Assembly: GCA_018645405.1 (NCBI GenBank)
Contig: JABGOQ010000136.1
Location: 1 to 43,467, forward strand
DNA: 43,467 nucleotides
Reading direction: 5' to 3'
Source of the DNA: Anaerolineae bacterium
GTDB lineage: Bacteria; Chloroflexota; Anaerolineae; Anaerolineales; Villigracilaceae
Below, piece by piece: positions 255 to 41,891 of this stretch (position 1 is its first letter; every line of letters starts with the position of its first letter). Under the pieces are notes generated by a model that was not told where the DNA came from, searched no databases, and saw nothing but the letters and a program-made list of their open reading frames with translations. The translations under genes and the position numbers were made by a program.

Positions 255-2105
255 CTAATCTGCCCCTAAGGGTTCTGAGCTGTGCTTTTTCTCTTCTGTA
301 AAATCAGCTACACCATATTGCTGCTCTAACTCCTGGCGGAACTGCTGCGTGTACAAACGGTAATAATGCCCACGCTGGCGAAGCAACTCAGCATGATTAC
401 CCATTTCCGTGATACGCCCATCTTCGATTACAAGGATACGATCTGCTCTGCGTATAGTCGAAAGTCGATGCGCAACAACAAAGCTGGTGCGCCCCTTCAT
501 TAAATGCTCCATTCCCTGTTGGATGAGAGACTCTGTGAGCGTATCCACGCTGGAAGTTGCTTCGTCCATAATAAATAGTTCTGGCTTAGACAGGACGGCA
601 CGCGCGAGGCTAACAAGTTGCTTCTGACCCGTAGACAGGAGATTCCCGCCTTCACCGACTTTCTCATCATAGCCCTTCGGTAGGGAGGTGATGAAGTCAT
701 GCGCACCAGCAAGTTGGGATGCTTCTTTGATCTCTTTCAGGTCCGCGTCAAGCCTACCGTAAGAAATATTATCGCGAATTGTGCCAGAGAAGAGATGGGG
801 GGTTTGCAATACAATCCCGATCCGTTCATGGATACTCTCCAAGGTATATTCTGTATAATCTTTTCCATTGATCAAAACTCGTCCACGCTTTGGTTCGTAG
901 AAACGGCAGAGCAAGTTCACGATCGTGGATTTTCCACCACCAGTTGGGCCAACAAGGGCGATCATCTCGCCGGGTTGGACTTTGAGCGTGAAATCCGTGA
1001 GAACAGGTTTGCGCTCTTCGTAATAAAAATCCACATGGTCAAACTCTATTTCTCCTAAGAGTGTCTCAGCAGTGATTGCTCCCGGTAAGTTGTGGATATC
1101 GGAAGGCGTATCTACCAGATCAAAGATGCGTTCCGCTGACGCGATTGAGTGCTGCATCTCGGCATATACGCGAGCAATATCTCGGATAGGCCATAGCATA
1201 AAAGTCAGATATGAGACAAAAGCATGGATGCCGCCAATCGTCAGCAAACCAGCTTGACTTTGAATCCCACCGTACCAGACAATGGAGCCTAATGCTATCG
1301 CAGCGATAATCTGCACGATAGGCAAAAAGAGCGCGGAGAGCCAAGCTGCCTTATATGAGGCTCGATACATATCGCCTGTCAGGTATTGAAATTCATGCAG
1401 ATTCTCATCTTCACGCCCCAAGGCTTTGACAACACGCACGCCGCTGATATTCTCATTATATGCGCCAGTGATTTTCGAGTTGGCGCGTCGAGAAGCGCGA
1501 AACTCAACCAAAATGCGCTGGCGGAATTTGATGCCGACAATGATCAAGACAGGGATTATCGCAAAAACTATCGCAGCCAAGCGCCAATTGATAATTGCCA
1601 TAAAAATGACGGATGTCGTGATGTTGGTGATCGCCCAGGTTGTATCAAGCAAGCCCCAAGTCAGCAAATCAGCGACACGCCCTGTGTCTGATGTGACACG
1701 GGACATCAATCGCCCAACTGACGTTTGACTATAGTAAGAGAGCGATAAATCTTGCAGATGTTCAAAGATCATCTTGCGCATATCATATTGAACGCGTTCA
1801 CCCAAGACACCAGCTAGATAAACAAAGGCAAAAACCAAAGCCGCTTGCACGAAAATGAAGCCACCATAGAGTTTAGCAAGCTCTAGCATGCGGTCTACAT
1901 CTTTAGCTACAATACCCTGATCGATAATATCTTTGTTAATGTAGGTGAAGACACCGTCCAAGGCAGATGTGAGCGCAATTGCAATAAAAAATCCAAATAC
2001 CCAACTCTTGTGTGGTTTCAATAGTTCAACGATGCGCTTTAGTACAGGCATTGTTAATTGACTTGTATATTCTTCTTCTTCAATTTCTATTTTTTCATTA
2101 GACAT
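255..2105 (-). CDS. ABC exporter half-transporter, second subunit of a heterodimer (catalytic Walker B, degenerate signature)
   Basis: This is an ABC type I exporter half-molecule: an N-terminal six-helix membrane domain (about residues 20-320) fused to a nucleotide-binding domain. Visible motifs, numbered from the ATG at 2105 (616 aa), are Walker A GPTGGGKST at about 386-394, signature LSTGQ at about 490-494 (consensus LSGGQ), Walker B LFIMDE at about 510-515 with the catalytic Glu, and the switch His near 546. The frame extends to a TTG at 2120, but the ATG at 2105 has GGAGAAA at proper spacing and is preferred. It lies 50 bases after the partner gene on the same strand. Such pairs (BmrCD, LmrCD, TM287/288) export drugs or lipids. 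The substrate cannot be read from sequence. Confidence 0.93.
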   Translation of the reverse strand: MSNEKIEIEEEEYTSQLTMPVLKRIVELLKPHKSWVFGFFIAIALTSALDGVFTYINKDIIDQGIVAKDVDRMLELAKLYGGFIFVQAALVFAFVYLAGVLGERVQYDMRKMIFEHLQDLSLSYYSQTSVGRLMSRVTSDTGRVADLLTWGLLDTTWAITNITTSVIFMAIINWRLAAIVFAIIPVLIIVGIKFRQRILVEFRASRRANSKITGAYNENISGVRVVKALGREDENLHEFQYLTGDMYRASYKAAWLSALFLPIVQIIAAIALGSIVWYGGIQSQAGLLTIGGIHAFVSYLTFMLWPIRDIARVYAEMQHSIASAERIFDLVDTPSDIHNLPGAITAETLLGEIEFDHVDFYYEERKPVLTDFTLKVQPGEMIALVGPTGGGKSTIVNLLCRFYEPKRGRVLINGKDYTEYTLESIHERIGIVLQTPHLFSGTIRDNISYGRLDADLKEIKEASQLAGAHDFITSLPKGYDEKVGEGGNLLSTGQKQLVSLARAVLSKPELFIMDEATSSVDTLTESLIQQGMEHLMKGRTSFVVAHRLSTIRRADRILVIEDGRITEMGNHAELLRQRGHYYRLYTQQFRQELEQQYGVADFTEEKKHSSEPLGAD

Positions 2106-2155
2106 AATCTTTTTCTCCAAAGACCGGGTTTCTTGTTATGAAATACGACCTCTTT

Positions 2156-3991
2156 TCAGGCTGCACCAGCAATTTCTTTTTCCAACTCTTCATCAATCCG
2201 TGTCTGCAAATCGTAAATTTCACGGTACATTCCATTTTCTGCCGCAAGCAACTCTTCATGTGTGCCGGTCTGAATAATCTCGCCTTTATCCAGCACAAGG
2301 ATCAAATCAGCGGTCATCACAGATTGAATGCGATGTGCAATGATGAACGTCGTCCGATTTTCCATTAGGTTATTTAGCGCAACACGGATAGTTGCTTCAG
2401 TTTCAGTGTCAACAGATGAGGTTGAATCATCCAAGATCAAGATCTGCGGATTCTTCAGCAGAGTACGCGCAATTGCTATGCGCTGTTTCTGCCCACCCGA
2501 GAGGGTGACACCCTTCTCTCCAACCAGCGTTTGATAGCCGTCAGGGAAAGTCAAAATAACATCGTGAACAGCTGCAGCGCGTGCAGCCTCTTCTATCTCT
2601 GCATCTGTCACTTCGCGCCCGACGCCGTAGGTAATATTCTCACGAATCGAGCGAGAGAAGAGGAAAGGTTCCTGTTCAACGATTCCCGTTTGCGCACGCA
2701 TATATTTGCGCGAGTAATCACGTAGTTCAACCCCATCCAAAAGAAGGGAGCCGCTCGTGTAATCGTAAAAGCGTGGCAACAAGTTGACTAACGATGTTTT
2801 GCCAGAGCCGGTTGAGCCGAGCAAGGCGATTGCTTGACCAGGCTCACAGTGAAATGAGATGTTTTTTAGCACGGGCGTTCCGTCCGATTTCTCATCTTCA
2901 TAGGCAAAAGAAACATCATCAAAAATAATCTTACCGCGCACTGATCCATCCGGGTCAACTTTTCCGTCCGTCAGCGGTTCACGAATTTCTCTTGTGATAT
3001 CCATCAGGCGACCATAGGAGACCAGTCCTGTTGAAGTCTGCACAATTAGACGCCCTAAATTGCGGATAGGCCAAATTAGCCATGCCACCAAACCGACATA
3101 AGCCAAATAAGTACCTACGGTGATTTCACCATTGATAGCCATGATCGCAGCAAAAATGAAACCGCCCAGCATTTGCCCACCAAGCACAAGATCTGAGAGA
3201 GGCCAATAGAGTGAGTGCATCAGCAATAAATAACGACCGCGCAGGAATTTTTCCCAGTTATCGCCTTCAAATTTGCTCTTCTCGTGTTTCTGGCGAGCAA
3301 AAGCCTTAACCACACGCACGCCTGTTAAATTTTCTTGCAATGTGGTTGAAAGCACCGTCGCTTGTTCTTGATATTTTTCATAACGTTTTGTGACACGCTT
3401 GAAAAACCACAGTGATGCATAAAGCATAAAAGGAATCACGATGACGGATATCCACGCCAGCTTCGCGTTTAGATTAAGTAGAGCGATGAAATTGATGAAG
3501 AAAATCAGGATGATGCGCCCTACACCTATGGCTTGCTCGTTGAAAAACCGGCGGACGGCGTCCACATCGGAGGTGACGCGTTCAATTAAATCGCCTATGG
3601 GCGTGCTACCGTGATAGGAAAAACTCAGTCGCTGAATGTGGTCGAAGAGAAAGTCGCGCAAGCGGCGTGCGATTCCTTCCGCGGTGTAGGCTGCCAGCCT
3701 GCCTGAAACGAAGGAGAATGCACCTTCGAAGAGAGCCAAGCCGACAAATCCTAAAGCGACCCAAGCAAAAGTTGCTGGAAGATCATCATTAATAGGAGAG
3801 GCATTACCGGTCAACACATCGGCAAAGTAGCGCAGAAGGAGGTAGGTAAGCGTTTTTGATAAAGCCGAAATTGCCAGTGTAAGGGTCGCGCCGAGATAGT
3901 GTCGACGGTAATCGACCATCATTTTCCATAGCCCTTTCAGGCGGTTTTTTGCAATAGTATTGCGAAAGTCGAAGGTTAGCGGTTTGTTCAT
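2156..3991 (-). CDS. ABC exporter half-transporter, first subunit of a heterodimer (degenerate Walker B, canonical signature)
   Basis: A 611-aa ABC type I exporter subunit: membrane domain about 30-330, nucleotide-binding domain about 350-600. Walker A is GSTGSGKTS (392-400), the signature is a canonical LSGGQ (497-501), and Walker B is ILILDD (517-522) with Asp where the catalytic Glu should be. The switch His is near 553. The partner has the reverse pattern, so together they would form one consensus and one degenerate ATP site, as known for TM287/288-type and BmrCD-type heterodimers. The gene is first in its operon. Upstream lies a leader with a small peptide ORF and an intrinsic terminator, which suggests drug-inducible control by attenuation. 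Confidence 0.93.
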   Translation of the reverse strand: MNKPLTFDFRNTIAKNRLKGLWKMMVDYRRHYLGATLTLAISALSKTLTYLLLRYFADVLTGNASPINDDLPATFAWVALGFVGLALFEGAFSFVSGRLAAYTAEGIARRLRDFLFDHIQRLSFSYHGSTPIGDLIERVTSDVDAVRRFFNEQAIGVGRIILIFFINFIALLNLNAKLAWISVIVIPFMLYASLWFFKRVTKRYEKYQEQATVLSTTLQENLTGVRVVKAFARQKHEKSKFEGDNWEKFLRGRYLLLMHSLYWPLSDLVLGGQMLGGFIFAAIMAINGEITVGTYLAYVGLVAWLIWPIRNLGRLIVQTSTGLVSYGRLMDITREIREPLTDGKVDPDGSVRGKIIFDDVSFAYEDEKSDGTPVLKNISFHCEPGQAIALLGSTGSGKTSLVNLLPRFYDYTSGSLLLDGVELRDYSRKYMRAQTGIVEQEPFLFSRSIRENITYGVGREVTDAEIEEAARAAAVHDVILTFPDGYQTLVGEKGVTLSGGQKQRIAIARTLLKNPQILILDDSTSSVDTETEATIRVALNNLMENRTTFIIAHRIQSVMTADLILVLDKGEIIQTGTHEELLAAENGMYREIYDLQTRIDEELEKEIAGAA

Positions 3992-4023: not shown

Positions 4024-4055
4024 AAAAAAGCCACGATGCGGAGCGCACCGTGGCT
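4024..4055 (-). terminator. leader terminator (attenuator) upstream of the ABC exporter operon
   Basis: On the minus strand, AGCCACGGTGCG (4044-4055), loop CTC (4041-4043) and CGCATCGTGGCT (4029-4040) form a 12-bp stem with one G-U pair, followed by five more T residues. It lies between the operon promoter (4201-4229) and the first exporter gene (start 3991), so it would stop transcription before the operon unless it is prevented from folding. Confidence 0.85.
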
Positions 4056-4080
4056 AAAATAGACCAAAGATATATATTCC

Positions 4081-4155
4081 TTAAAGAGGAATAGGCGCAC
4101 TCCTAGAAAGTGAAAAATAAACACTTAGAGGGATAAAGGTTTTTTGTACTGTCAT
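4081..4155 (-). CDS. 24-aa leader peptide of the ABC exporter operon
   Basis: ATG at 4155, stop TAA at 4081-4083, 24 residues beginning MTVQKTFIPLSVYF and ending SRSAPIPL. A strong Shine-Dalgarno AAGGAG (4165-4170) sits 9 bases upstream. The ORF lies between the operon promoter and a strong intrinsic terminator, and its ribosome-binding site and 3' end each contain a segment complementary to the terminator stem. This is the arrangement expected of an attenuation leader peptide whose translation senses ribosome-targeting drugs. I do not recognise the peptide. No known stalling motif is certain, although Pro and Arg residues near the end could slow a ribosome. Confidence 0.7.
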   Translation of the reverse strand: MTVQKTFIPLSVYFSLSRSAPIPL

Positions 4156-4200
4156 CTTGGTGCGCTCCTTTTTAAGATTTGCTTCTGGGAAGCAAAAACG

Positions 4201-4229
4201 AGTTTATCATTGGGGATGGGGAGTGTCAA
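4201..4229 (-). promoter_or_regulatory. promoter of the ABC exporter leader and operon
   Basis: On the minus strand there is a consensus -35 TTGACA (4224-4229), a 17-base spacer and an extended -10 TGATAAACT (hexamer 4201-4206). Transcription should begin near 4194, giving a leader of roughly 200 bases. A short hairpin (GCTTC-TGG-GAAGC, 4181-4193) would lie at the 5' end of the RNA. Confidence 0.8.
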
Positions 4230-4321: not shown

Positions 4322-4870
4322 ATGGATGAAGAAAAACTAGATAAAGGGGATTGGATCGTACACAAACAACATGGGGTTGGGCAGATCAAGGCGGTTGAAG
4401 AGAAAACGATAGGAGATAGCGTACGCCAATATTTTCGCGTAGATGTAAGTGGTGGTGTTTATTGGTTGCCAACTACAGATATGCCAGATTATGTTCGGCC
4501 TGTTTCGTCTCATTATAAGTTCCGCAAGGTACTCAAACTTATTCGCGAAGCCCCAGGTGAGTTACCTCAAGAATACAAAGAGCGCGATCGGAAAATTGCT
4601 GAGAGACTAGAAGACCCTGCGCTTGAATCAAAAGGCAAGTTGATTAGAGATTTACATGCGCGGAAGCAGACAGAAGGTGCAAAATTAAGCGCGCTTAATG
4701 AAAGGCAGTTGGATGGACTCAGAATACAATTTCTTGCTGAGATGGTTATTGTTTTAGACGTTGAAATGCGAGAAGCTGAAGACAGGCTTGATAAAGCCTT
4801 AAAGAAGAGTCTAGTTGAGCTAACAGAGTCTTCTTTAACGACAGGGGTAGTGAGTGAAAGGGCATCATGA
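4322..4870 (+). CDS. CarD-like RNA-polymerase-interacting regulator, copy 1
   Basis: A 182-aa protein with an N-terminal CarD/TRCF RNA-polymerase-interaction domain (about residues 5-60, with GDWIVHKQHGVGQIKAVE and YWLP) followed by a helical domain (about 65-165) of the CarD type. CarD binds the RNA polymerase beta subunit and stabilises open promoter complexes. The same HGxG core occurs in Mfd in this window. The start has AAGGAAAA just upstream. Its stop overlaps the start of a paralogue by four bases (ATGA), so the two are translationally coupled. The pair looks like an old tandem duplication: the C-terminal helices match in order but have diverged. It carries neither a DNA-methylase nor a rRNA-operon neighbour that would narrow its role. 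Confidence 0.88.
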   Translation: MDEEKLDKGDWIVHKQHGVGQIKAVEEKTIGDSVRQYFRVDVSGGVYWLPTTDMPDYVRPVSSHYKFRKVLKLIREAPGELPQEYKERDRKIAERLEDPALESKGKLIRDLHARKQTEGAKLSALNERQLDGLRIQFLAEMVIVLDVEMREAEDRLDKALKKSLVELTESSLTTGVVSERAS

Positions 4871-5448
4871 GTGTAAAAGAAATAGCTACAGAACATAAGG
4901 AAAGACTTGAAGAAGGGGATTGGATAGTTCACAAGCAACATGGGGTAGGGCAAGTTAAAGCAATTGAAAAAAAGAAGATAGGCGGAAAAGAGCGGAAATA
5001 TTTTCGTGTTAAAGTGAGTGATGGCGTTTATTGGCTTCCGATCAAGAAAGCCCCAGACTATATCCGCTCGATCGCTTCTCGTTACAGAATTCGAAAGGTA
5101 CTAAAATCCATACGCAAAGCCCCACAAGATTTACCAGATAACTACAAGGAAAGAAATGAGTACGTTGTGGAGAAGTTGACTGGCGCTAAACTTCAGATAA
5201 AAGGGGAAATAATCAGAGATTTGCACGCAAGGGGACCAAACGAAGACGTAAACCTGACGGTCATTGACAGCCGACAATTAGATAAACTGCGAGAGCAATT
5301 CCTTCGTGAGATGATGATCGTTTTAGACATAGATATGGCTAAAGCGGAAGAAAAACTTGATCGGGCTTTAAGAAAAAGTGTTGAAAGAATGAAGAAAAAT
5401 AAGAAAGAAGAAAGAGCTGAATCGCAACCAGAGGAAGAGCTAGGATAG
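4867..5448 (+). CDS. CarD-like RNA-polymerase-interacting regulator, copy 2
   Basis: A 193-aa paralogue of the upstream gene, with the RNA-polymerase-interaction domain at about residues 14-70 (GDWIVHKQHGVGQVKAIE, YWLP) and a helical C-terminal domain (about 75-175). It ends in a charged tail of Lys and Glu (KKNKKEERAESQPEEE). Compared with copy 1 it has about 9 extra residues at the N-terminus. The ATG overlaps the stop of copy 1, and an intrinsic terminator follows, so the two form a complete operon. Two different CarD subunits made together could compete for RNA polymerase or act at different promoter sets; this is inference. Confidence 0.88.
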   Translation: MSVKEIATEHKERLEEGDWIVHKQHGVGQVKAIEKKKIGGKERKYFRVKVSDGVYWLPIKKAPDYIRSIASRYRIRKVLKSIRKAPQDLPDNYKERNEYVVEKLTGAKLQIKGEIIRDLHARGPNEDVNLTVIDSRQLDKLREQFLREMMIVLDIDMAKAEEKLDRALRKSVERMKKNKKEERAESQPEEELG

Positions 5449-5503: not shown

Positions 5504-6487
5504 TCATTTTTTGTCAAAAATCTCGTAATATCCCTGATCTAATTCATCATCAGACAAATGTGCGTATCGCTGCGTAACGGCGATATTGCTATGACGCGCC
5601 AATTCTTGTGCCATTTTCAAATTGCCCGTTGCACGTAAAACAGTGGTTACGAAATAATGCCTAAAGGAGTGGGGCGTTATCTTGCCAACAGCTTCTTCCC
5701 CCAATATCTGACGAACGCGGTCTCTGACGATATTTCTACCTGTTGCTGTAGAGATTGGCTTTACTTTTTTTCCCGCGCCCTTATCATGCCGAGCAAAGAG
5801 GGGCAGGGAGGGGAGGGGGCGTCCCGAAGAACCGTCCAGTTTTTGGCGAGCAGAGAGATAATCTTTGAGAGAACGCATTGAGCGTGATGAAAAACGGATC
5901 AACGCCTGCTTATCGCCTTTCCCGATGATAATAGCGCGCCCCTCGTTCCAATCCACATCTCCGCGCCGCAATTCACATATTTCGTGCACCCGAAGCCCTG
6001 TATCTGCCAAAGTGATGATAAAAGCACGGTCTCTTAATGCGCGTAATCGTTCTTTTTCTTCTTCTGGCAATAATTGCGCATAACTTTCCACAGCCTTGAT
6101 GATCGAATCGATGTCTTCGCGAGGAAATTGGGGCAACCGCTGACCGGGTCTGCGTGCGCGCTGGCGGATGAGAAGCTCCAGCCGAGGCAGGTTTATTTCA
6201 GCAAGTCGCTCGGCAACAAGATATTTGTAGAAACCCGTTAGAGCGGCCAGGTAGAGACGTTCTGTGGTCGGTGCATAAATCTTCAGCGCCGTAATCGTCC
6301 ATGCTAATGCATCCTCGCTGATCTCCATAATTGGCGTCTCATCGGGGGAGATGTTGCGCACGTCTAAAACCTGCGTGAAAAAGTTTAGCGCGTTGGCGTA
6401 GGTGCGGGCGGTGTTCTCGCTGCGCGCTAAACGCACCGTCCCTAAATACCCTGCAATCGCTTCAGAAATGGTGATTTTCTCACTCAT
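5504..6487 (-). CDS. tyrosine recombinase, XerC/XerD-like
   Basis: A 327-aa site-specific recombinase. The N-terminal SAM-like core-binding domain covers about residues 5-95 and the catalytic domain about 118-320. All six catalytic residues can be placed by pattern: Arg166 (TGLRVHE), Lys190 (IIGKGDK), His273 and Arg276 (TPHSFRH), His299 (ELARHSN) and Tyr308 (TQRYAHL). It resolves or integrates DNA by forming a 3'-phosphotyrosine bond. It stands alone with its own promoter, with no phage genes and no visible attachment site. It could be the chromosomal Xer recombinase or an orphan integrase, and this cannot be decided here. The length is near that of XerC/D (about 300 aa) with a small insert in the catalytic domain. 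Confidence 0.9.
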   Translation of the reverse strand: MSEKITISEAIAGYLGTVRLARSENTARTYANALNFFTQVLDVRNISPDETPIMEISEDALAWTITALKIYAPTTERLYLAALTGFYKYLVAERLAEINLPRLELLIRQRARRPGQRLPQFPREDIDSIIKAVESYAQLLPEEEKERLRALRDRAFIITLADTGLRVHEICELRRGDVDWNEGRAIIIGKGDKQALIRFSSRSMRSLKDYLSARQKLDGSSGRPLPSLPLFARHDKGAGKKVKPISTATGRNIVRDRVRQILGEEAVGKITPHSFRHYFVTTVLRATGNLKMAQELARHSNIAVTQRYAHLSDDELDQGYYEIFDKK

Positions 6488-23624: not shown

Positions 23625-24449
23625 ATGACAACAAATACTAAAGATGCTTGCGAAACCTGCCCAATTCACGATGCTGCAGCATTAAAAAAATTGGGCGTTG
23701 ATATGAGCGACTTCGACTATGTAGTCGCTTTAGCAGGAAACCCCAATACTGGAAAAAGCACTGTTTTTAATGCCCTAACGGGATTACGTCAACATACTGG
23801 CAATTGGCCTGGGAAAACCGTTAGCCGCGCAGAAGGCGGATTTGAATATGGTGACCATAAATATAAAATGGTTGATTTGCCTGGAACTTATTCGCTTTTA
23901 GCCACAAGTCTGGATGAAGAAGTCGCACGCGATTTCATCTTATTCGGTCAACCCGATGTCACAATTGTGGTCGTTGACGCGACGCGTTTGGAGCGCAACT
24001 TAAATTTGGTCTTACAAGTGCTCGAAATTACCAATCGCGTTGTAGTTGCCTTGAACTTGATGGATGAGGCAAAGCGACACGGAATCCAAGTGGACGAACG
24101 CCGATTAGCACGAGACTTGGGTGTTCATGTTGTGCCAATGGTCGCGCGTCAAGGAGAAGGTGTCCCAGAACTTTTACAGGCTGTTGGTGAAGTTGCTAAT
24201 AGAAAAACGGTTGGGAAACCCTATCGTGTCAAATACGATTCTCCTGAACTCAAAAAAGCTGTCACACAAGTCACGAAGCAAATAGAAGATGCTTATCCTG
24301 AGCTACCTAATGCGCAATGGGTGGCGTTGCGTCTCCTTGATGGTGATGAGCGTATTGCTGAAGCCCTTCGCAAAGGCGAACTTGGCGATTTGACGCACGG
24401 TGATATAGAACAACGCTCTGCACAATTGCAAGTAATTGGGAACCAGTAG
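23625..24449 (+). CDS. feoB: FeoB GTPase domain protein (N-terminal half of split FeoB)
   Basis: A 274-aa G protein. G1 is GNPNTGKST (38-46), G2 lies in the WPGKTV region (61-66), G3 is DLPG (84-87) and G4 is NLMD (144-147). It ends within the helical GDI (S) domain ([19 protein letters not shown] and on). The first 30 residues add a short extension with CETCPIHD, a CxxC that usual FeoB lacks. FeoB imports Fe(II), gated by GTP. Here the permease follows as a separate gene in another frame, beginning 10 bases after this stop, with its ribosome-binding site overlapping the stop. The G motifs are intact, so this is no decayed gene. Confidence 0.93.
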
Positions 24450-24459
24450 GAGTATATAT

Positions 24460-25896
24460 ATGACAACAAAAAACACAAGACCCCTCGAAAATATCCTCTC
24501 TACAGCCCAATCTCTGCGCTGGGAAATTGGTGTAGATTTTCATGAAAAAGTGACAGAATCGATTTATACTGATGCTGCCAAAATCGCAGATAGGGCAACA
24601 ACTCGTCCCGAAGAGAAGCCTCGTTTTGATTTTGATAAAAAACTAGATCAAATTCTCACCAGCAGAATCTGGGGCTTCCCCTTGATGCTCGCTCTATTAA
24701 TGATTGTCTTCTGGTTGACTATCTCGGGAGCAAATGTTCCATCTTCGATGTTGGCAACTTTGCTTCTCGACAATATTCACCCACTTCTAAAAGGTTTCGC
24801 CGCAAATATCGGAATGCCGTGGTGGTTAGATGGCTTCCTTTTTGATGGTGTTTATATGGCAACGGCTTGGGTGATTAGTGTTATGCTCCCACCAATGGCG
24901 ATTTTCTTCCCACTCTTCACCTTGCTCGAAGATTTCGGCTATCTTCCCCGTGTTGCCTTTAATTTAGACAATATGTTCCGTAAATCTGGGGCGCACGGCA
25001 AGCAGGCTCTCAGTATGACAATGGGGTTTGGCTGTAATGCTGCAGGCGTAGTTGCCACACGTATTATTGATAGCCCTCGTGAGCGATTGATCGCGATTAT
25101 TACCAATAACTTTGCCCTCTGCAATGGACGTTGGCCCACGCAGATATTAATCGCTTCTTTATTCATCGGCGCATTAGTCCCTGCACAACTAGCAGGATTA
25201 GTCTCCTCGATGGCTGTGGTTGGGATTGCACTCCTCGGGGTTTTTCTGACATTTGTCTCCTCAAAATTTTTATCAAAAACTTGGCTCAAAGGCGAAGTTT
25301 CTACTTTTAGTCTAGAACTACCTCCCTATCGACCGCCTCGAATCTGGCAGACCATCTACACCTCTTTAATTGATCGCACATTCATTATTTTGTGGCGCGC
25401 TATTATTTTTGCTATCCCAGCCGGAGCTGTGCTTTGGTTGAGCGCAAATATCACGATTGCAGGCACAAGCCTTGCCGGATATCTGATCAATTTCCTGAAT
25501 CCATTTGGGCTATTACTTGGTCTCAACGGCGTGATTTTGGTCGCTTTCATTGTTGCTATCCCCGCGAACGAGATTGTTGTCCCGACCATCATGATGCTCA
25601 CTGTGCTCGTTACAGGCGCAGGTGGTGGCGAAGGCGCAGGCGTGATGTTTGAACTAGAATCGGGTATGGAGACAATGGCACTTTTCCAAGCTGGTGGTTG
25701 GACGCTCCTCACTGCCGTCAACCTAATGCTCTTCAGTCTTATTCACAACCCCTGCAGCACCACCATTTACACAATCTACAAAGAAACAGGGAGCAAAAAG
25801 TGGACGTGGGTCGCCTCCCTAGCCCCTGTGCTCATGGGCTTCGCCGTGACTTTTGTAGTTGCACAGTTTTGGCGTTTAGTGACAAGTGTTTTTTAG
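24460..25896 (+). CDS. feoB: FeoB ferrous iron permease (C-terminal half of split FeoB)
   Basis: A 478-aa membrane protein. Its first 65 residues ([19 protein letters not shown], then [16 protein letters not shown]) match the end of the FeoB GDI domain. The permease follows with about ten membrane helices and two Gate-type repeats. GFGCNAAGV and [11 protein letters not shown] carry the conserved Cys positions. A longer frame starts at a TTG at 24436 inside the previous gene, but the ATG at 24460 has TAGGAG (24447-24452) at good spacing. Equal stoichiometry with the GTPase would come from coupling. The two genes are in different frames with separate start signals, so this is a true split and not a single base error. 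Confidence 0.92.
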
Positions 25897-39992: not shown

Positions 39993-41891
39993 ATGATAAA
40001 AAAGAATCATACCAACAAAAAAGGCTGGGGTTTTAGAGGCCAAGGTTTGATTGAGTATGCAATTTTACTTGCTTTAATTGCAATGGTCACAGCTGGCGGA
40101 CTAGCACTCAAAGGCGAAGAGGCATCAGATGCGTATGAGGATGTCGCTTATCTATTTGGTACACCGACACCAGAGCCGCTTGATCTTTACCCCGATGATA
40201 GGATTAACGTAAAAGTCATTGACGCGATGGGAGAAGGAATTGAAAATGTAATTGTTTATGCTTTTCATGATTCTGGATCTTATGCTGGAAAGTATTCCCG
40301 CACAAACGAAAATGGGCTGACAGAATTCTTTGAAATGGAAGATGGGGTTTATAAATTCCGCGCAGACTTGCAAAGTAAGCAATTTTGGTCCGATACACTT
40401 AATTGGCCTATAGAACATTTTAGAGTTATTCAAACAGGGCAAATGGATTTCCCTGTCAAGGTTGTAGATGCCACCGGGAAGGGGATTTATAACGTACGCG
40501 TTTATGCTTATACGGAAACGGGAGGTTGGGCAGGGTCTTATGGAAATATCGGTAGTGACGGCATTGTCAATTTACCGATGGTTGCAGGGAACTTCAAGTT
40601 CCAAACCTATTATCAGGGACAAAATCATTACTGGTCTGAAATAGCAATTATCCCAGATGAAAAACAAGCCACCATCTATACGGGACAGGAACCTTTCCCC
40701 GTAAAAGTTGTAGATGCCGCTGGAAATGGGATTAGTGGGGCAAGAGTTTATTCCTACACAGAAAGAGGTGGTTGGTCAGGCAAATATGGAAATACCGGTA
40801 GTGATGGCACCGTAAGCTTGGATATGGCAGAAGGTAACTTCAAATTTAGTGCTTATTATCAGGGGCAACGATACTGGTCAGAAGTGGCAAGTTTGCATCA
40901 AGACAGTTCCGCAACCATTAAAACAGGGCAAAAAGCGTTTTCTGTCAAAGTTGTAGATGCAACCGGAAATGGCATTAGCGGAGTGCTTGTTTATGCCTAC
41001 ACGGACAAAAGTGGGTGGGCAGGCGAATACGGTAACACCGGTAGCGATGGCACCGTAAGCTTGGATATGGCAGAAGGTAATTTCAAATTTAGGGCCATAT
41101 ATCAAGGGCATAATTATTGGTCAGACGTAATTAGCCTACATCAGGCAACTTCAGCAACCATCAAAACAGGGCAACAATCATTCTCAGTGCGTGTTGTAGA
41201 TGCGGCAGGAAATGGAATTAGCGGCGTAAGAGTTTACAGCTATAACAGTGCTGGTGGTTGGGCAGGAAAATATGGAAACACTGATAGCGATGGTACGGTG
41301 ACTCTGGATATGTCAGCAGGTGATTTCAAATTTAGAGCCTATTACCAAGGGCACACCTATTGGTCTGATACAATCTCTATCCCTGCTGTAAGTTCGACAA
41401 CGATCCAAACCAACCAGCAAGCTTTCTCAGTGCGAGTTATTGACTCTTCTGGAGCAGGCCTGAACAGAGTGCTTGTCTATGCTTATACAAATAATGGAGC
41501 TTGGACAGGAAAATATGGATATACAGATGGAAACGGAAACCTAAACCTAGACCTTGCTAACGGAGAATTCAAATTCCGCGTTTATTATCAGGTACAAAAT
41601 TTCTGGTCAGATGTCGTCTCTGTACCACAAACAACTTCAAAGACCATAAAAATCGATCAAGAAAACTTAACCATCACTGTCGTAAACCAAGACGGCAAGC
41701 CGATGAATAAGGAAGTTGTCTATGTTTATACGAGTAAGGGTCATTATGCTGGTGTCTATGCTAGAACAGGAGCAGATGGAACCGTCACGGTTTCTCTCTC
41801 CAATGGTGCATATCGAATTCGTTCCCGAAACTATTGGTCAAAAACGGTCACAGTTCTTGGTGCCAGCGAAGTCAAAGTGATTATGAAATAA
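39993..41891 (+). CDS. giant Flp-type prepilin with seven tandem beta-domain repeats
   Basis: A 632-aa protein. The N-terminus (GWGFRGQGLIEYAILLALIA) carries the Flp/TadE-type prepilin cleavage motif G/XXXXEY, with cleavage after Gly16, Glu21 at +5 and Tyr22, and then a hydrophobic helix (about 23-40). After a linker come seven repeats of about 80 aa: 70-150, 152-232, 234-313, 315-394, 396-475, 477-555 and 557-632. Each has the pattern VKVVDA-GNGISG-RVY-YT, GWAGKYGNT, DGTV-LDM, GNFKFRA-YQG and YWSD, resembling carboxypeptidase-regulatory or Ig-like beta domains. Usual Flp pilins have fewer than 100 residues. Only a weak AAAGAAA precedes the ATG; ATA (39966) or CTG (39969) starts after AAGGAAGG are possible. 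It heads a Tad locus. Confidence 0.85.
   Translation: MIKKNHTNKKGWGFRGQGLIEYAILLALIAMVTAGGLALKGEEASDAYEDVAYLFGTPTPEPLDLYPDDRINVKVIDAMGEGIENVIVYAFHDSGSYAGKYSRTNENGLTEFFEMEDGVYKFRADLQSKQFWSDTLNWPIEHFRVIQTGQMDFPVKVVDATGKGIYNVRVYAYTETGGWAGSYGNIGSDGIVNLPMVAGNFKFQTYYQGQNHYWSEIAIIPDEKQATIYTGQEPFPVKVVDAAGNGISGARVYSYTERGGWSGKYGNTGSDGTVSLDMAEGNFKFSAYYQGQRYWSEVASLHQDSSATIKTGQKAFSVKVVDATGNGISGVLVYAYTDKSGWAGEYGNTGSDGTVSLDMAEGNFKFRAIYQGHNYWSDVISLHQATSATIKTGQQSFSVRVVDAAGNGISGVRVYSYNSAGGWAGKYGNTDSDGTVTLDMSAGDFKFRAYYQGHTYWSDTISIPAVSSTTIQTNQQAFSVRVIDSSGAGLNRVLVYAYTNNGAWTGKYGYTDGNGNLNLDLANGEFKFRVYYQVQNFWSDVVSVPQTTSKTIKIDQENLTITVVNQDGKPMNKEVVYVYTSKGHYAGVYARTGADGTVTVSLSNGAYRIRSRNYWSKTVTVLGASEVKVIMK
40200..41888 (+). 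repeat. seven tandem coding repeats of about 243 bp in the prepilin gene
   Basis: Repeat starts are near 40200, 40446, 40692, 40935, 41178, 41421 and 41661. Repeats 3 and 4 are nearly identical over a central stretch (about 40797-40850 and 41040-41093), pointing to recent duplication. Repeats 1 and 7 are the most diverged. Confidence 0.85.

Follow-up and report, generated by a model that had tools for sequence, protein, structure and literature searches.

A predicted ribosome-read transcription attenuator before an ABC exporter operon of an Anaerolineae bacterium and its relatives before predicted resistance and ribosome-associated genes

The trp operon attenuator senses charged tRNA via repeated codons. 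Its logic of alternative pairing (1:2, 2:3 and 3:4; PMC4191407) recurs in the pairing predicted for the leader described here. A fair parallel, already drawn in the original prediction for this locus, is bmrB of the bmrCD operon in Bacillus subtilis, where a two-gene multidrug ABC exporter is controlled by ribosome-mediated transcription attenuation and where an anti-antiterminator, an antiterminator and a terminator are predicted as well (PMC4191407). This kind of mechanism is already known, and the nearest representative by layout, closer than bmrB, is vmlR of the same organism: its upstream open reading frame (uORF) lies in an anti-antiterminator, a pause hairpin and next an intrinsic terminator come after it, and a drug-stalled ribosome frees the antiterminator (PMC9226507). 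In Escherichia coli the uORF toiL of topAI senses several ribosome-targeting drugs, some of them via arrest at the start codon (PMC12121999).

The leader analysed here is located in a 43,467-nucleotide stretch of DNA, in the following called the window. A promoter, a 24-codon uORF led by a Shine-Dalgarno sequence (SD) and a 12-bp terminator followed by T residues had been predicted, and all of them were located on the minus strand (Table 1). The promoter boxes (TTGACA at 4229-4224, TAAACT at 4206-4201) agree with the consensus at 10 of 12 bases. Two segments complementary to the 5' arm of the terminator were likewise found as described before: segment A is a perfect complement of segment C over 10 bases, and segment B pairs with C at 10 positions, two of them as G-U. 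The terminator (4055-4029) lies downstream of the uORF, which ends at 4081, and not within its coding region; 37 nt separate the end of its stem from the first exporter ATG. The folding z-score of the window leader is -5.16, as good a value being reached in 0/200 shuffles, and in its minimum-energy fold A:B is formed and the terminator C:D is standing, not A:C.

Both exporter subunits possess an ABC_membrane and an ABC_tran domain, and the two adjacent half-transporters carry unlike motifs. The pairs LSGGQ/LDD and LSTGQ/MDE suggest, as we assume, a heterodimer of the BmrCD and TM287/288 kind in which one of the ATP sites is degenerate. Among the matches listed, both subunits are below every NCBIfam cut-off. 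Within the window only this exporter pair belongs to the gene classes which are found behind the leader. Divergent from the leader, two tandem CarD-like/TRCF-RID proteins with an RNA-polymerase-binding domain (4322-5448, plus strand; PF02559 and PF21095 above the Pfam cut-off) are encoded, adjoined by a tyrosine recombinase/phage-integrase family protein (5504-6487, minus strand). Elsewhere the ORF list contains a 632-aa protein with a hydrophobic N-terminus followed by near-identical repeats (39993-41891, plus strand) and two overlapping ORFs (23625-25896, plus strand) which taken together presumably resemble a FeoB iron transporter broken into two parts.

Table 1 Features of the leader and of the exporter operon in the window
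Feature	Position	Strand	Basis or remark
Leader, promoter to terminator	4229-4021	-	precedes two-gene ABC exporter operon
Promoter, TTGACA, 17-nt spacer, TG-extended TAAACT	4201..4229	-	sequence
uORF Shine-Dalgarno sequence, AAGGAG	4165..4170	-	conserved in leader alignment
Segment A, GGAGCGCACC, overlapping the uORF SD	4159..4168	-	fold, covariation, partner-swap test
uORF, 24 codons, MTVQKTFIPLSVYFSLSRSAPIPL + stop; ATG 4155, TAA 4083-4081	4081..4155	-	ORF reading
Segment B, GGAGTGCGCC, near uORF end; partner A or C	4094..4103	-	duplex energies, covariation
Stop-codon hairpin H, ATTCC TCTTTAA GGAAT, stop codon in loop	4076..4092	-	sequence, covariation
Segment C, GGTGCGCTCC, terminator 5' arm and loop; predicted to pair with B (antiterminator)	4040..4049	-	covariation
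Intrinsic terminator C:D, AGCCACGGTGCG-CTC-CGCATCGTGGCT, 12 pairs, then T6	4029..4055	-	sequence
ABC exporter subunit 1, 611 aa, LSGGQ, LDD Walker B	2156..3991	-	sequence, Pfam
ABC exporter subunit 2, 621 aa, LSTGQ, MDE Walker B	255..2120	-	sequence, Pfam

With the exporter as query and a cut-off of E <= 1e-100, 56/60 related genomes gave matches, more distant paralogs being counted too; further relatives were taken as the best 80 of 511, nearly all of them titled Anaerolineae or Chloroflexi. The 110 exporter loci, some genomes being represented twice, gave 105 differing upstream regions, two of which (L029 and L064) were set aside because the sequence ends too close to the gene for judging. 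A leader is present in all 103 upstream regions of sufficient length (103/103). An automated scan found uORF, B and terminator in 102 regions, from which 90 distinct leaders were scored; in L089 the uORF was missed by the scan, yet uORF and B are visible on reading and its contig, equal in length to that of L166, matches the covariance model described below. The uORF, 22-36 codons long, has an SD and a start codon in 90/90 scored leaders, and B lies in its frame in 89/90. The distance from the start codon to B amounts to 42-84 nt, and the stop codon follows 15-24 nt past B in 85/89. The attenuation leader observed in the window is real and confirmed, and this comparison, together with the folding described below, supports its assignment as a transcription attenuator that relies on a uORF and precedes an ABC exporter.

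A search of Rfam 15 gave no match at gathering score for the leader, the window and 20 loci yielding tRNAs only, and the best match below threshold was RF03532 with 26.4 of 100 bits. Membership in a known RNA family was therefore rejected at the gathering score, which leaves room for an unknown RNA class, such as a translation-independent riboswitch or a protein-binding leader in which the uORF is incidental. The presence of uORF, SD and start codon in every scored leader, the overlap of A with the SD and the locked distance between B and the stop codon make such a leader barely credible.

In the 90-row alignment 90.8% of the cells in A:B, H and C:D are paired, compared with 82.4% in shuffled and 27-48% in slid alignments, and double changes are found in 262 cells versus 90.6 in the shuffled ones. 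The individual helices reach 90.5% (A:B), 76.9% (H) and 97.8% (C:D). For B:C, 92.2% of the cells are paired versus 91.2% shuffled and 21-47% slid, with 10 double-change cells versus 3.6; the pairs changed on both sides (2 vs 1.6 shuffled, 269/500 shuffles being as high) and the pair types (9 vs 8.2, 162/500 as high) are those two of the five covariation measures on which B:C does not exceed the shuffles. Conservation among relatives had been expected for the leader; in the aligned sequences A:B, C:D and the stop hairpin covary strongly and B:C more weakly. An independent-pair test on an exporter-protein tree (89/90 proteins) found no single pair significant; among the pairs listed, the structural pairs all trend as expected on average, two control pairs are without trend, and the best pair was C:D 209-230 with a median p of 0.0625.

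The mean duplex energies over the 90 leaders are -16.5 kcal/mol for A:B, -14.8 for B:C and -11.1 for A:C. The own partner is preferred to swapped ones in 78/90 leaders for A:B, in 61/90 for B:C and in 27/90 for A:C; among 17 leaders with an uncommon B, the own B is favoured by A in 13 and by C in 10. Segment A is accordingly best described as a predicted anti-antiterminator strand with B as conserved partner. With B as the conserved partner of the SD segment, the leader is predicted to stay off when initiation fails.

For folding in five ribosome states the ribosome footprint was masked, and transcripts ending before D as well as full-length transcripts of the 90 leaders were used. In the transcripts ending before D, B:C is formed in 85/90 leaders with the ribosome at the start codon, in 56/90 at codon 5, in 23/90 at codon 10 and in 0/90 at the stop, in agreement with the earlier proposals that stalling early in the uORF would free B as the antiterminator and that a ribosome at the stop would cover it. 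Without a ribosome A:B is formed in 55/90 of these transcripts and B:C reaches the threshold in 23/90. Among 90 further copies of the leader (see below) with a recognisable B, B:C is formed in 78 with the ribosome at the start, in 4 at the stop and in 49 without ribosome; the frequency of B:C without a ribosome in both sets means that the OFF state is not sharp. In full-length transcripts 85-90 of the 90 leaders form the terminator whatever the ribosome state, and the choice for read-through must therefore fall during transcription. According to these models, arrest at the start would lead to the antiterminator, a finishing ribosome would remove it, and an empty message would tend to A:B. The proposed difference between folds with and without the ribosome-protected segments is thus seen in most leaders ending before D, not at full length, and the window copy itself is a poor fit.

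In the window transcript ending before D, B:C wins with the ribosome at the start, and A:C wins in the four other states, with no ribosome or with one at codon 5, codon 10 or the stop; at full length with the ribosome at the stop, A:C outweighs C:D. The SD segment had been suggested as a second antiterminator which lets the exporter switch on when initiation at the uORF fails, and the window copy speaks for this, as its perfect A:C duplex is the strongest among the 90 leaders (-22.2) and prevails in four of the five shortened-transcript states. Over all leaders A:C is the weakest pairing and does not track its partner (27/90), and even the minimum-energy full fold of the window leader holds A:B together with the terminator, so that an antiterminator made of the SD segment is improbable and would at best be a trait of the window species. 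Either A:B, which is made first, may hold in the cell, or the leader of this species may be leaky, or the A:C alternative may apply to it.

In the explanation which we prefer, the leader is one member of a homologous RNA family, apparently belonging to the Anaerolineae, whose predicted function is ribosome-read attenuation of transcription. Its probability is put at roughly 0.74, a value lowered by the window copy, which folds an antiterminator in all five shortened-transcript states. If a ribosome is held on the uORF at its start codon or close to it, A would be kept off B, and the freed B would pair with the terminator arm C, so that the downstream operon is transcribed. Termination by C:D would follow in two cases: if the SD is free of ribosomes, A:B would form and hide the SD, and if a ribosome has reached the stop, B would be covered. 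The ON state would thus need an initiated ribosome and, in addition, a delay in the first codons, as caused by several ribosome-targeting drugs. Loss of the SD or the start codon of the vmlR uORF nearly abolished expression (PMC9226507), as a model with an initiated ribosome expects. Several drugs arrest ribosomes at the start codons of vmlR and vga(A) (PMC12121999), which matches the antiterminator obtained with the start footprint.

The tripeptide S-A-P is near-invariant in the uORFs (84, 88 and 86 of 89 leaders) and recurs in many further copies. It loosely recalls an arrest motif of the RAPP type, and the conserved C-terminal RSAP-V-D-R could be an arrest peptide which responds to a ligand or keeps the ribosome standing on B. 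S-A-P is, however, the translation of B in its usual frame, and the RNA is kept though B is out of frame in L027 and likewise in 14/90 further copies. In the codons ahead of B the third positions are held constant, whereas one second position is variable. Furthermore, a ribosome arrested at the uORF end would sit on B and thereby promote termination, and an arrest peptide is highly improbable on these grounds. The N-terminal part of the uORF has a pN/pS of 0.745 versus 0.944 and 0.712 in the other frames; selection on a peptide there was rejected as indistinguishable from the other frames, so that no drug-specific stall motif is visible. An amino-acid attenuator was also rejected, the listed uORFs being without codon runs and the neighbours not biosynthetic.

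Two short motifs accompany the hairpins. CCTTNTYG, to which the constant third codon positions and the variable second position ahead of B belong, stands just before B in 60/90 leaders and in a looser form in 40/92 further copies (window copy CTTTCTAG at 4112-4104, minus strand), and TGTC occurs between stop hairpin and terminator in 45/79 exporter leaders versus 13.3 expected from mononucleotide shuffles. CCTTNT and TGTC are possibly elements at the RNA or DNA level, perhaps polymerase pauses. The stop-codon hairpin H may speculatively be a possible pause hairpin, and equally speculative is a pausing of RNA polymerase by H together with CCTTNT.

A covariance model built from the 90 exporter leaders matches in 132/396 genomes of the class (E <= 0.001). 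Among 400 genomes drawn from the phylum, their class make-up being uncounted, 33 matched, all of the same class as the window, and the class which carries the family is, to judge from the titles of the named relatives, apparently Anaerolineae. From 120 further matches retrieved 119 were counted, and the nearest recognised gene on the same strand was taken as the neighbour, which in a few cases is not the first ORF (e.g. L189, L218). With gene classes named after inspection and a class library taken from the same loci, 115/119 further copies precede GNAT, ABC exporter, ABC-F, DrrA-like ABC-2, RsgA, RIO, MFS or HAD genes; the neighbours are GNAT (38), DrrA-like ABC-2 ATPase (14), window-type exporter (14), other ABC exporter (13), RsgA (12), RIO kinase (8), ABC-F (8), HAD (4), MFS (2), ABC-2 permease (2) and unclassified (4). 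RsgA is normally single-copy, and 12 of 119 copies before it are therefore far above chance. Among representatives, three ABC-F proteins are above the NCBIfam ribosomal-protection cut-off and one RsgA is above TIGR00157; the gene in second place behind L175 is similar to TetA(P), with a score below the cut-off of that family. Operon-like runs behind the leader (L193, L201, L217, L248; L178; L175) combine RsgA-MFS, RsgA-RIO kinase and RIO kinase-MFS. A TTGAC is found within 90 nt upstream in 104/119 further copies.

The alignment of the further copies, which served for covariation, B:C and swap tests and contains one short antisense match (L196) wrongly included, has 83.3% of the cells in A:B, H and C:D paired versus 71.7% shuffled and 27-52% slid, with 60.3% for H alone. 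B:C, which is absent from the model, is paired in 87.3% versus 83.9% shuffled and 17-41% slid, and this was equalled by 0/1000 whole-locus swaps.

In the genus of the window copies exist in 8/9 genomes, and at E <= 0.01 19/19 matches precede the exporter (8), an MFS pump (7), RsgA (2) or ABC-F (2). The window's own genome contains three matches at this threshold, before exporter, MFS and RsgA. Its further match L114 1530-1690 (C2:7772-7954; 22.1 bits, E 0.027) stands before an ABC-F gene, and its uORF is apparently leaderless, the start lying directly behind a TATAAT box without SD; it is regarded as a lead only. L115 of the same genome (19 bits) was rejected as a family copy since no neighbour belongs to these gene classes, and two model matches are weaker than L115.

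The leader is thus placed repeatedly before predicted resistance genes and ribosome-associated genes. We infer the switching, its signal and a role of the copies as a cis-encoded regulon for translation stress. The switch might instead read any delay in early translation, as in starvation, cold or a shortage of initiation factors, and not antibiotics. The variable N-terminal part of the uORF, lacking clear peptide selection, and the RsgA and RIO genes, which are not classical resistance genes, agree with such a signal; the neighbours are, however, mostly predicted pumps, ABC-F proteins, ABC-2 transporters and acetyltransferases, and three of the ABC-F proteins exceed the ribosomal-protection cut-off, which makes a signal other than antibiotics rather unlikely.

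For the attenuator family as preferred above, a wider proposal stands at even odds: Anaerolineae may possess a regulon without a master regulator, in which one ancestral switch was copied before many genes and each copy is an AND gate. An initiated ribosome stuck in the first codons would turn the gate on, and no initiation or smooth translation would leave it off. The switch would have been copied before pumps, ABC-F ribosome protectors, acetyltransferases, RsgA and RIO kinases, so that RsgA and the RIO kinases fall into one predicted response with ABC-F proteins and pumps. This predicts that copies of a cis-element coordinate the response to translation inhibitors in an abundant, mostly uncultured lineage. 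The consensus of an RNA family without Rfam match is now defined and its covariance model works, and the leader may serve as a finder of candidate resistance or ribosome-care genes independent of homology, several GNAT, HAD and RIO proteins behind it being of obscure role. In the open-licence literature no published account was found of this RNA family, of an SD as anti-antiterminator strand, of the stop-codon hairpin or of one attenuator before about ten gene classes, and no paper which brings RsgA together with attenuation, a leader peptide and an antibiotic.

WhiB7 is a trans-acting activator of a whole set of targets, among them pumps, ABC-F proteins and acetyltransferases. The WhiB7 regulon of Actinobacteria, a coordinated response to translation-targeting antibiotics (PMC10727445, PMC7157823), resembles the regulon predicted here; in the family described here, by contrast, an attenuator stands before each gene or operon. 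Unlike the trp attenuator, the listed leader uORFs have no run of codons for a charged tRNA. The uORF toiL governs translation of topAI and Rho-dependent termination, and not an intrinsic terminator in the leader (PMC12121999). For bmrB the terminator is located inside the coding sequence of bmrB itself, and what the anti-antiterminator does was unclear (PMC4191407), whereas in the window family the terminator comes after the uORF and A:B is backed by covariation. In vmlR a uORF of 3 codons is present, with its SD upstream of the anti-antiterminator stem (PMC9226507); in the window family the SD overlaps the 5' strand of the stem, the uORF of 22-36 codons ends within a covarying hairpin, and the leader is common to about ten gene classes.
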